64,000 bases of DNA from positions 557,001 through 621,000 of the forward strand of contig NZ_SSYA01000001.1 of the NCBI RefSeq assembly GCF_004917065.1, read 5' to 3'. Shown here piece after piece: positions 13,463 to 48,374 of this stretch. This DNA comes from Geomonas ferrireducens (GTDB lineage: Bacteria > Desulfobacterota > Desulfuromonadia > Geobacterales > Geobacteraceae). Each line of letters begins with the position of its first letter. Within the stretch, counting starts at the first letter, position 1. The position numbers and the translations under genes are program-made. Under the pieces are notes generated by a model. The model had not been told where the DNA came from. It made no database searches and saw only the letters and a list, made by a program, of their open reading frames with translations.

Positions 13463-14695
13463 TCACCGCGTCCCCGCTTTCTTGAAGACACCATGTCGCA
13501 GTTCAGTGATCATCCTAAAGAAGTTCCTGTTCTGCCTTTCCCTCCGATTGGTTACAGCTACAGGTATCGGGTAAACCTTTCTCAGCTCGCGCAACATCCA
13601 CTCGCTCCGGAGGCAGAGCAGAAGCCCGGCGAAGGGGGCAGACAACAAGGCGGTCCCGAAGATGAGACCGACGACGCCGACGGCGTAATAGGAAAGGGCT
13701 GCGTGACTGGAGGCGAGGTTCACCCACTGGAGGAACTCAACGACTTCGTAGATTACCGCGACCGTGATACCGGACCAGGCCCCTTCAACCAACCGACGCA
13801 AGCCTCCCTTCTTGAGCTTCCAGAACTGGTAGGCGGCCCAGAGCAGATGGATGCCGGCGATGGTGACGGTCCACGGTATGAAGCCCAGATCGAAGAACAC
13901 GGACAGTTTGGACACCGGGACCAGATACGGCTCCGACATTACCGCCTGCCAGTCCTTACCGTAATAGTTCATGAGCCCGGTGCCTCCATAGAGAAGAGCT
14001 GCCGCACCGACCGCCATCACGAGCCAGGCGGTTATCTCAACTATCTCCGGTGGAGGTGCTCCTTCTTCCAAGGTCAGAGACGGCGGTTCTGGTGTTGCCG
14101 GGATAGCTGAGGACTCTATGGGAGGATTGCCATAACCCTTTGGCGCGGCGAGGTCCTCCCGCTCTTCGACCAGTTCGCCGCGGTGTCTTTTTTCGTCGAG
14201 GATCCGCGAACCCTCCATGGCAAGAAACTGCGGATTGAGCCCCTGCAACAGCAGAAACTGCCCCGGATCCAGCTTTACGGCGACTCCTTCCGTCACCTCC
14301 TGCATCTCGAACTCGAAAGTTCCCTTGGTCCAGGCGAAGAGGGAGTAGACCACCTTCTCGATCTGGTCGCGCACCACGTTCTCGATCGCGTCGGCGCTCA
14401 CCCCGAAGCGCTCGACCATGATGGTGCCGAGAAGCCGCCGGTACCCTTCATCCGCCTGTGCGCTCAGAGCGAGGTTGAGGGTGCTTCGGTCGATGACGCC
14501 CCTGCGGATCAGCAGCTCGCCCATGTTCTGTCGAAACACGGTTGAACTCGCCCTGGTGACGTAGCCATTCTGGAAAATGATGCTGGCCTCGCGCCCCAGG
14601 CTTTTCAGTGACAGCACGCCGGACTTTCGGCTCAAGCTGACGATCTGCATGATCTCGCCGAGTCCCAGATCGTCGATGTTGCCAACAAGACTCAT
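13463..14695 (-). CDS. DUF4388 (PatA-like N-terminal) protein with C-terminal membrane domain
   Basis: 410 residues. Residues 1-~175 form a DUF4388 domain (GEIMQIVSLSRKSGVLSLKS, IIFQNGYVTRASS, ELLIRRGVID), found at the N-terminus of PatA-type response regulators and gliding or signalling proteins in this phylum. After a Pro-rich linker come about four membrane helices (about residues 225-380). The combination of a DUF4388 sensor/scaffold with a membrane anchor is unusual, and no enzymatic motif is visible. It lies 37 bp after the lipoprotein gene, whose leader carries the cGAMP-type riboswitch, so it is probably controlled by it. Confidence 0.75.
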   Translation of the reverse strand: MSLVGNIDDLGLGEIMQIVSLSRKSGVLSLKSLGREASIIFQNGYVTRASSTVFRQNMGELLIRRGVIDRSTLNLALSAQADEGYRRLLGTIMVERFGVSADAIENVVRDQIEKVVYSLFAWTKGTFEFEMQEVTEGVAVKLDPGQFLLLQGLNPQFLAMEGSRILDEKRHRGELVEEREDLAAPKGYGNPPIESSAIPATPEPPSLTLEEGAPPPEIVEITAWLVMAVGAAALLYGGTGLMNYYGKDWQAVMSEPYLVPVSKLSVFFDLGFIPWTVTIAGIHLLWAAYQFWKLKKGGLRRLVEGAWSGITVAVIYEVVEFLQWVNLASSHAALSYYAVGVVGLIFGTALLSAPFAGLLLCLRSEWMLRELRKVYPIPVAVTNRRERQNRNFFRMITELRHGVFKKAGTR

Positions 14696-14732: not shown

Positions 14733-14927
14733 TCATTTTTTAATTTCGTTGATCACGTTGTTCAGTTTGGCTCCTGCTTTGTCAATTTCCTTGCCGGCTT
14801 TTTCTACGGACTTGTCGATCTCCTTCCCCGCGCGCTCCGCCGGCCCCTCTTTTTTGCAGCCGGTAACGCCGGCGATCATGCTGCCCAATACAAGCGCTGC
14901 GACCATAACTTTGCTCAATTTCGTCAT
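14733..14927 (-). CDS. Small lipoprotein controlled by the cGAMP-type riboswitch
   Basis: 64 residues. A signal sequence with lipobox VLGSMIAGVTGC (Cys24) is followed by a charged amphipathic repeat (two copies of AGKEIDKSVEK-like heptads) that probably forms a short coiled coil. This resembles entericidin-like or Lpp-like small envelope lipoproteins, but no exact family was recognised. The ATG at 14927 has GAGGTGTCCT upstream. It is the first gene after the riboswitch and its terminator, so expression should depend on the ligand. Confidence 0.75.
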   Translation of the reverse strand: MTKLSKVMVAALVLGSMIAGVTGCKKEGPAERAGKEIDKSVEKAGKEIDKAGAKLNNVINEIKK

Positions 14928-14971: not shown

Positions 14972-15019
14972 AAAAAAAGCCGGGGCCGGAATATCTTGAG
15001 ATATTTCGGCGACCCGGCT
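14972..15019 (-). terminator. Riboswitch expression platform: intrinsic terminator
   Basis: On the minus strand the 3' part of the aptamer (AGCCGGG, 15019-15013, continuing into GAAATATC) can pair with GATATTCCGG...CCCCGGCT, followed by T7 (14978-14972). The terminator therefore competes with the folded aptamer for AGCCGGG. This predicts antitermination when ligand is bound (an ON switch). Confidence 0.7.
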
Positions 15020-15083
15020 GTCTCGATGAGACCCTGTAGGCTTTCCGTCCCATCCTCGCGGATGGTTTAGTATTGTCGTTATC
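15001..15083 (-). promoter_or_regulatory. GEMM-I riboswitch, cGAMP-type (GEMM-Ib)
   Basis: The minus-strand leader carries the GEMM-I signature in order: ACAATACTAAACC, a hairpin ATCCGCGAGGAT, GGGACGGAAAGCC, a variable hairpin GGGTCTCATCGAGACAGCC, and GGGTCGCCGAAATAT. The canonical cyclic di-GMP class has G at the base-specific position 20 (CAGGGCAAACC in the Vibrio Vc2 aptamer). Here the aligned stretch is CAATACTAAACC, giving A at that place, as in the Geobacter aptamers selective for 3',3'-cGAMP. The alignment was made by eye and ligand choice is inferred from this base. It sits directly upstream of the small lipoprotein gene. Confidence 0.85.
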
Positions 15084-15111
15084 CGGCTTTAATTGTGTTG
15101 GCTTGCGGCGC

Positions 15112-15140
15112 ACGATAGCCCAAGCAGCCTGCTTCGTCAA
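15112..15140 (-). promoter_or_regulatory. Sigma-70 promoter of the riboswitch operon
   Basis: Minus strand: TTGACG (15140-15135), a 17-bp spacer, TATCGT (15117-15112). Transcription would start near 15105, about 20 bp before the aptamer. Confidence 0.6.
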
Positions 15141-15283: not shown

Positions 15284-15312
15284 TTGACTTACGAAAAACT
15301 TACGAGTATTCT
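15284..15312 (+). promoter_or_regulatory. lexA promoter with candidate LexA operator
   Basis: TTGACT (15284-15289), a 17-bp spacer and TATTCT (15307-15312). The spacer holds a direct repeat of ACTTACGA (15287-15294 and 15298-15305) with an 11-bp period. A direct repeat one turn apart between the promoter boxes is a plausible autoregulatory site, comparable in geometry to the direct-repeat LexA box of Alphaproteobacteria. It is not the operator published for G. sulfurreducens. Confidence 0.5.
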
Positions 15313-47084: not shown

Positions 47085-48374
47085 ATGAAGAGACTGCTCA
47101 GGGTCCTGATCGTAGAAGACGCACCGGACGACGCCCAGCTAATCGTGATACAGCTCGAGCAGGGAGGCTTCGACGTGCACTCCCGGCGCGTGGACAACGC
47201 GCAAGGACTCATCGAGGCCCTCGAGAGTGCGTCCTGGGACGTGGTCGTTTGCGACTACGTCATGCCCGGCTTTTCCGGGCTGCAGGCGCTGCAGATCCTC
47301 AAGGAAAAGGGCTCCGACATCCCCTTCCTGATGATCTCCGGGAAGGTCGGGGAGGAGGCCGCCGCTGCCGCCATCCGCGCCGGCGCCGACGACTTCGTGC
47401 TCAAGGGGAACCTGACCCGCCTGGTCCCGGCGGTGCAGCGCTCGATAGCGGAAGCGGCCCTGCGCCAGCAGAGCCGGCGTCACGAGGAGGAGCTGAAGGA
47501 GAAGCTGGACTTCATCCAGGTCCTCATCGATACCCTACCCACCCCGATCTTCTACAACGACCCCAACGGCCTCTACCTCGGCTGCAACAAGGCCTTCGAG
47601 GAGCAGATCGGCATCAAGCGGGGTGAAAACGTCAACAAGAGCATCTACGACATCCTCCCGCCGGACCTGGCCGCCCTGTACAACAGGGGCGAGGAGGCCG
47701 CCGAAGCAGGAAGCGGCCCGCGCAGCTTCGAAGGGACCATCACCTGCGCCGACGGCGAGCACCGGGACGTCATCTTCTACAGTGCAAGCTTCAAAAAGCC
47801 GGGAACCAGCTCCGGTGGTGTGGTCGGGGCGCTCCTCGACATCTCGGAAAGAAAACAGGCCGAGCTGAAGCTGCGTTACCTGAGCAGTCACGACATCCTG
47901 ACTGGCATCTACAACCGCGCCTATTTCGATGAAGAACTGGAGCGGCTGAAGAAAGGGAGGAAGTTCCCGGTGAGCATCGTCATGGCCGACGTCGACCGTC
48001 TCAAGGAGACCAACGACCAGCAGGGGCACGCGGCCGGGGACGAACTCCTGAAACACGCCGCCGAGGTGCTGAAAAACGCCTTCCGGCGCGAGGATGTGGT
48101 GGCGCGTGTTGGGGGCGACGAGTTCGCGGCCCTGCTCCCGAACACCGATGAGACGGCCCTGCGCGAGGCTATGGAGCGGCTCCAGCAGCAGCTGGCCCAG
48201 AGTAACGAAGGGCACGCTCCGCATCCGCTCAGCCTCTCCATTGGTGCTGCCACCGCACAAAACGGCGATGAACTCATGGCGTCATGGCGCCTCGCCGACC
48301 AGAGGATGTACCGCCAGAAAAAAGGGCGCAAAAATGGCGGTGCCGGCAACAAGCAGCACCAGTTGGTGGCCTGA
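47085..48374 (+). CDS. Response regulator diguanylate cyclase (REC-PAS-GGDEF)
   Basis: 429 residues. Receiver (about 5-125; acidic pocket E11-D12, phospho-Asp57 in VVVCDYVMPG), PAS (about 147-265), and a GGDEF domain (about 275-425) with intact GGDEF catalytic motif and an upstream inhibitory RxxD site (RREDVVARVGGDEF). The guanine-contact region reads ETNDQQGHAAGDELL. The Asp in GD, which is Ser in the cGAMP-making Hypr subclass, is kept. It should therefore make cyclic di-GMP when phosphorylated. No partner kinase is adjacent. Ribosome site AAAAAGG precedes the ATG. Confidence 0.9.
   Translation: MKRLLRVLIVEDAPDDAQLIVIQLEQGGFDVHSRRVDNAQGLIEALESASWDVVVCDYVMPGFSGLQALQILKEKGSDIPFLMISGKVGEEAAAAAIRAGADDFVLKGNLTRLVPAVQRSIAEAALRQQSRRHEEELKEKLDFIQVLIDTLPTPIFYNDPNGLYLGCNKAFEEQIGIKRGENVNKSIYDILPPDLAALYNRGEEAAEAGSGPRSFEGTITCADGEHRDVIFYSASFKKPGTSSGGVVGALLDISERKQAELKLRYLSSHDILTGIYNRAYFDEELERLKKGRKFPVSIVMADVDRLKETNDQQGHAAGDELLKHAAEVLKNAFRREDVVARVGGDEFAALLPNTDETALREAMERLQQQLAQSNEGHAPHPLSLSIGAATAQNGDELMASWRLADQRMYRQKKGRKNGGAGNKQHQLVA

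Follow-up and report, generated by a model that had tools for sequence, protein, structure and literature searches.

A known class of RNA switches activates genes in response to the bacterial signal cGAMP. The very probable member described here is from Geomonas, a soil iron-reducing bacterium, and the described systems closest to it are from Geobacter. For the pilM GEMM-Ib switch of Geobacter metallireducens, the available text of PMC9262584 names C37-G66, U15-G38 and C75 as the cGAMP-contact positions and reports that aptamer and terminator exclude each other. The GSU1761 (pgcA) GEMM-Ib switch of G. sulfurreducens is described in the available parts of PMC6456294 and PMC8835794 as a GacA-dependent cGAMP ON switch that controls a cytochrome gene. 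A20 is named as the selectivity base in the available part of PMC6456294.

The leader of a small lipoprotein gene in Geomonas ferrireducens is read here from its sequence, with a probability of about 0.87, as a GEMM-Ib (3',3'-cGAMP-type) transcriptional ON riboswitch. By analogy with the published relatives, cGAMP is the probable ligand, and read-through would depend on it. Going by the published descriptions, in so far as these are available, the leader shares an A20 GEMM-I aptamer and a terminator with GSU1761, whereas its downstream genes, encoding a lipoprotein and a DUF4388 protein, differ from those of both pilM and GSU1761. The class and its mechanism have already been published, and this element is one of 10 A-type elements in its genome; the new details are a short P1 junction, first genes that differ between species, and an apparent DUF4388 chimera behind a riboswitch. 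The element would thus add a clean, well conserved member to the Geomonas cGAMP regulon, leaving knowledge of the riboswitch class unchanged.

Promoter and aptamer

Three Rfam families exceeded the cut-off in the window (the whole 64-kb stretch of DNA analysed), namely RNase P, one tRNA and the c-di-GMP-I (GEMM-I) aptamer. The last is encoded on the minus strand, where it is followed by a small ORF and a DUF4388 gene; a divergent cassette carries lexA-like, IMS polymerase and DNA polymerase III alpha-type genes. The features of the locus are as follows.

15112..15140, minus strand: sigma-70-like promoter from a promoter scan, with -35 box TTGACG (15140-15135), -10 box TATCGT (15117-15112) and a 17-bp spacer
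15083..15090, minus strand: AAAGCCGG, just 5' of P1 and complementary to CCGGCUUU of the terminator; possible extra antiterminator, from folding
15080..15083, minus strand: P1 5' strand GAUA, directly before ACGAC, from P1 pairing analysis
15005..15081, minus strand: GEMM-I (c-di-GMP-I, RF01051) aptamer core, comprising P2, GCGA tetraloop and P3, from the Rfam match
15071, minus strand: ligand-selectivity base A, at Rfam model position 11 in the RF01051 alignment
15009, minus strand: cytosine for Watson-Crick pairing with the ligand, the equivalent of pilM C75, paired with G14986 in the terminator on folding
15000..15003, minus strand: P1 3' strand UAUC, also in the upper stem of the terminator, from P1 pairing and the terminator fold
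14972..15019, minus strand: intrinsic terminator, from folding and sequence, with stem 15019-14978 and 7-T tract 14978-14972; its 5' arm is the aptamer AGCCGGG plus GCCG
14733..14927, minus strand: first gene after the riboswitch, from ORF reading, encoding a small lipoprotein of 64 aa with lipobox VTGC (by eye)
13463..14695, minus strand: second gene, from ORF and domain search, encoding a 410-aa protein with an N-terminal DUF4388 domain and a C-terminal hydrophobic region (by eye)

A preliminary description of this DNA had recognized GEMM-I along the length of the leader and proposed an Rfam covariance search as a check. This search agreed with it, matching RF01051 at 15081-15005 with 44.9 bits against a gathering threshold of 35 and covering all 87 model positions (1-87; E 1.5e-5, from a search of the 64-kb window with 4227 families). 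Within the 1-kb region, two promoter-like sites were found, the leader's own and that of the divergent gene, compared with 0.5 +/- 0.6 in shuffles. The orthologous promoter and leader are present in G. edaphica, G. oryzae and G. diazotrophica, and similar promoter boxes are readable in the orthologous leaders L016, L017, L018 and L088 (L numbers denote loci, G numbers genomes). Measured between the -35 box and the stop codon of the lipoprotein gene, the unit extends over 408 bp, close to the 400 bp first given for promoter, aptamer, terminator and gene. At 15284-15312 (plus strand), the promoter-like site of the divergent lexA-like gene overlaps a direct repeat CTTACGA, a possible operator.

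When folded alone, the aptamer region was no better than shuffles (MFE z -0.91; 34 of 200 as good), as might be seen in a decayed riboswitch whose terminator is constitutive and for which the ligand no longer matters. However, the pocket, P1 and terminator are kept in the orthologues of G. edaphica, G. oryzae, G. diazotrophica, G004 and G005, unlike the sequence just after the terminator, which differs among them, and such decay is highly improbable.

Ligand selectivity

Model position 11, which we take to be Vc2 position 20, carries A (A15071) here versus G in the Rfam consensus, so the marker of the GEMM-Ib subclass is present; this base, which the preliminary description had also read as A, is kept in the orthologues. 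The pilM contacts C37-G66, U15-G38 and C75, as named in the available text of PMC9262584, correspond, at a fixed shift of two, to C15047-G15018, U15069-G15046 and C15009, the same spacing as in pilM, and this correspondence is a check on the subclass that is independent of the Vc2 numbering. In the genome as a whole, 15 RF01051 elements exceed the cut-off, compared with none in the 14 control genomes. The selectivity position is A in 10 of them, this riboswitch included, and G in five (L001-L004 and L014), which belong to the same family RF01051 and differ from this riboswitch in carrying G, as in c-di-GMP binders. The column of C15009 is invariant in the alignment of all 15. One of the G elements, L014 (G000:C2:1369019-1369108, minus strand), resembles the A20 group in having C-G as the next P2 pair, and its P3 is longer.

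The P1 junction is one nucleotide short here, a form common to eight of 130 genus leaders, 120 of 130 having the usual length; owing to this difference, the affinity for the ligand may differ. It was also considered whether the same ON switch could respond mainly or equally to c-di-GMP, through the short junction or through other positions. In addition to the missing junction nucleotide, the G. sulfurreducens data leave room for this, because 13 GEMM-Ib elements are given, and 12 of 17 GEMM-I elements were shown to bind cGAMP, in the available part of PMC8835794, so that not every A20 element is proven. Nevertheless, this leader matches every pocket position that the available text names for the cGAMP aptamer of pilM, the P1 junction lies outside the selectivity position, and it is the A20G substitution that converts the Gmet_0970 aptamer to c-di-GMP (PMC6456294, available part). 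A c-di-GMP response of this kind is thus quite unlikely.

Terminator and proposed switching

The terminator stem (AGCCGGG..GCCG / CGGC..CCCGGCU, 15019-14978) was calculated at -24.7 kcal/mol with a z of -4.95, and none of 200 dinucleotide shuffles folded as well. The terminator was not listed by the motif scanner, probably because the scanner seeks only short stems with loops of 3-8. AGCCGGG, which the preliminary description had correctly placed in both the aptamer and the terminator 5' arm, lies inside this stem together with the pocket cytosine and the P1 3' strand UAUC, and aptamer and terminator are therefore mutually exclusive. The terminator 5' arm overlaps the aptamer pocket and the P1 3' strand, the hallmark of a pilM-type ON switch, and the arrangement is the same as that given for pilM in the available text of PMC9262584, where the terminator sequesters the ligand-pairing cytosine in a transcriptional ON logic. 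The distance from pocket C to terminator G is 27 in pilM (C75 to G102, PMC9262584, available text) versus 23 here (genus median 23, range 16-37). The shared strand, conserved in the orthologues, supports the ON logic predicted earlier.

In the proposed mechanism, RNA polymerase would start near 15105 and make the P2/P3 scaffold. With cGAMP bound, P1 (GAUA/UAUC) and the pocket cytosine 15009 would be held in the aptamer, the terminator would be blocked, and transcription would run into the lipoprotein and DUF4388 genes, which are presumably co-transcribed. Without ligand, AGCCGGG would be captured, together with the pocket cytosine and P1 3' strand, by the nascent CGGC..CCCGGCU; the resulting terminator hairpin would stop transcription at the T tract. 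In RNAfold calculations at full length, which contain no ligand term, the aptamer-enforced state was at -26.1 versus -42.4 kcal/mol for the terminator state. Since the aptamer state is far less stable at full length, the choice would have to be made during transcription, on the growing RNA.

A third state is conceivable, in which AAAGCCGG (15090-15083) pairs with CCGGCUUU of the terminator as a dedicated antiterminator, giving a three-way switch or a leaky leader. RNAfold of the 133-nt transcript prefers this pairing by 0.3 kcal/mol (-42.7 vs -42.4 for the terminator), and the same element and preference occur in G. edaphica and G. oryzae (L016 and L017). Strong upstream complementarity was also found elsewhere (L137/L138, L170/L174, L222 and L005/L155; p <=0.026), and eight of 42 leader families fell under the 10th percentile of the upstream-terminator swap test. 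However, the element is lost (AAAGUCAG) in L018, L087 and L088, and upstream-to-terminator complementarity is absent genus-wide (observed -10.83 vs swapped -10.79 kcal/mol, P 0.43, with an upstream window that cuts off the end of the AAAGCCGG element). Among swapped pairs, 4.8% have matches of at least seven bases, and the duplex energy of this leader is unremarkable (p 0.17, for a window without the last G of the AAAGCCGG element). A general role of AAAGCCGG as antiterminator, convincing in single folds, was rejected, as it has no genus-wide support and is lost in sister species. For this leader, a contribution of the element is unlikely but is retained as an alternative because a few unrelated leader families show strong upstream complementarity.

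Leaders across the genus

The ON riboswitch reading was compared with leaders across the genus, collected by a Hamming scan for aptamers similar to the Ib consensus; one search, with at least 150 matches, contributed 110 (30 + 80) of the 150 loci listed. Because the scan selects Ib-consensus-like aptamers, its count of 130 A versus 3 G is uninformative on frequencies. Similarly, matches of a model (R2) built from 10 elements to this leader family are not independent evidence, since this riboswitch is among the 10, whereas the RF01051 match is independent. The loci examined contained at least 130 distinct A20 leaders, and a downstream run of at least five T was found in 122 of the 130 examined. 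After three (L139, L140 and L168) had been set aside because their T run was apparently miscalled, 119 were folded, and the pocket cytosine was found to pair with G in the terminator in 115. The eight leaders without a run of five T were left out of terminator folding; interrupted T runs occur in L157, L160, L213 and L214, whereas no T run was seen in L009, L193, L206 and one leader in L207.

P1 pairs at all four positions in 114 of 122 leaders when two registers are tested, the types including GAUA/UAUC, GGUA/UGCC and GGUA/UACC. The family-mean pairing was 3.90, compared with 3.77 +/- 0.03 for swapped strands (P 0.0003), a null that is high because most leader families share GAUA/UAUC. Thresholds for P1, for terminator pairing of the P1 3' strand and for AGCCGGG pairing were all passed by 90 of 122 leaders; the present leader family is among the exceptions, its P1 being nearer to the core by one nucleotide than either register tested.

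Some other A20 elements differ in arrangement. L193 and L206 (in G008 and G014) are A20 GEMM-I aptamers for which no terminator was seen; in their fold, the aptamer UCGCC pairs with a GGCGA that overlaps the likely Shine-Dalgarno sequence of the next ATG, which suggests translational ON versions of the cGAMP switch. At L009 (G000:C2:867523-867599, minus strand), an A20 aptamer that lacks a recognizable terminator precedes the gene of a fibronectin-III protein. L005/L112 (G000:C2:174530-175702, minus strand) has an A20 riboswitch ahead of the gene for a PAS-GGDEF-EAL protein, a possible case of cGAMP control of c-di-GMP metabolism.

Which genes would the riboswitch control?

The DUF4388 gene starts 37 bp after the lipoprotein gene, and through the riboswitch cGAMP would be linked to the small lipoprotein and to a little-studied DUF4388 membrane protein. 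The lipoprotein gave no Pfam match at E 0.01. The codon differences of its gene are mostly in the third position (for example, 12, 4 and 23 at positions 1, 2 and 3), which fits a genuine gene. Close lipoprotein homologues (73-79% identity, one a partial match) with a riboswitch were found in G004, G005 (two tandem copies) and G006, and in L088 (G005:C62) the promoter, riboswitch and lipoprotein gene are duplicated in tandem. At the remoter lipoprotein-like genes L089-L093, L095 and L096, no riboswitch match was found within the stretches examined.

The 410-aa DUF4388 protein is present at full or nearly full length in only four of 19 genomes (in G006, residues 1-379), behind the riboswitch in all four. 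Its N-terminal half matches a longer paralogue in all 19 genomes (59-75% identity), and its C-terminal half matches a frame of about 300 aa in G008 and G014 (42-44%; the G008 frame with one stop). As the halves match separate frames, the protein looks like a recent chimera. No riboswitch match was found at 66 more distant loci (L019-L084, several with little flank because the contig soon ends) or at 26 loci with paralogues or partial relatives (L238-L263). The idea of an old, conserved riboswitch client was rejected for the DUF4388 gene, as, among the loci searched for it and its relatives, the (nearly) full-length chimera alone has the riboswitch, in four of 19 genomes.

The gene sets behind the leader vary. 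In G. edaphica and G. oryzae (L016 and L017), the riboswitch stands directly before the DUF4388 gene, with no lipoprotein gene between; both genes follow it in G. diazotrophica (L018), as here, and in G006; and G004 and G005 (in tandem duplicate) have the lipoprotein without the chimera. We tentatively suggest, at somewhat less than even odds, that promoter, cGAMP aptamer and terminator form a single cassette, moved or retained as a unit, and that the genes it recruits vary from one Geomonas species to another. If so, newly assembled genes could be brought into the cGAMP regulon by means of this portable cassette. This element is not treated in the available part of the one paper found to mention both Geomonas and riboswitch, and no literature joining DUF4388 with a riboswitch or cGAMP was among the matches listed, the first GEMM-Ib surveys, reportedly from 2015, lying outside that search.

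Hypr GGDEF proteins and a possible supply of cGAMP

The genome has 27 PF00990 matches. The Hypr residue, for which Ser348 is given as the marker in the available part of PMC6456294, was readable in 24 of them (all except L119, L121 and L122), being Asp in 21, Ser in two and Thr in one. The first Ser protein, L113 (GHLIGS, GGDEY), has a receiver (REC) and a GGDEF domain, and its best PDB match is 6d9m with 234.5 bits, the next scoring 146.2. The title of 6d9m names a fusion with 'response receiver sensor diguanylate cyclase, GAF domain-conta...', and we take it to be the Geobacter GacA GGDEF domain. The second, L123 (GYAKGS), has a GGDDF motif; Ser together with GGDDF is described for GSU1937 in the available part of PMC8835794. 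The genome thus encodes a GacA-like Hypr cyclase and a second Ser GGDEF protein, both candidate cGAMP synthases, and since these two Hypr-type GGDEF proteins occur together, the pathway is testable in one organism.

Two further GGDEF proteins were noted. In L118 (G000:C1:1881447-1881917), the Hypr position is occupied by Thr (GHLAGT) and not by Asp or Ser, and L117, a GGDEF domain protein, lies in the window itself at 47886-48335 on the plus strand.
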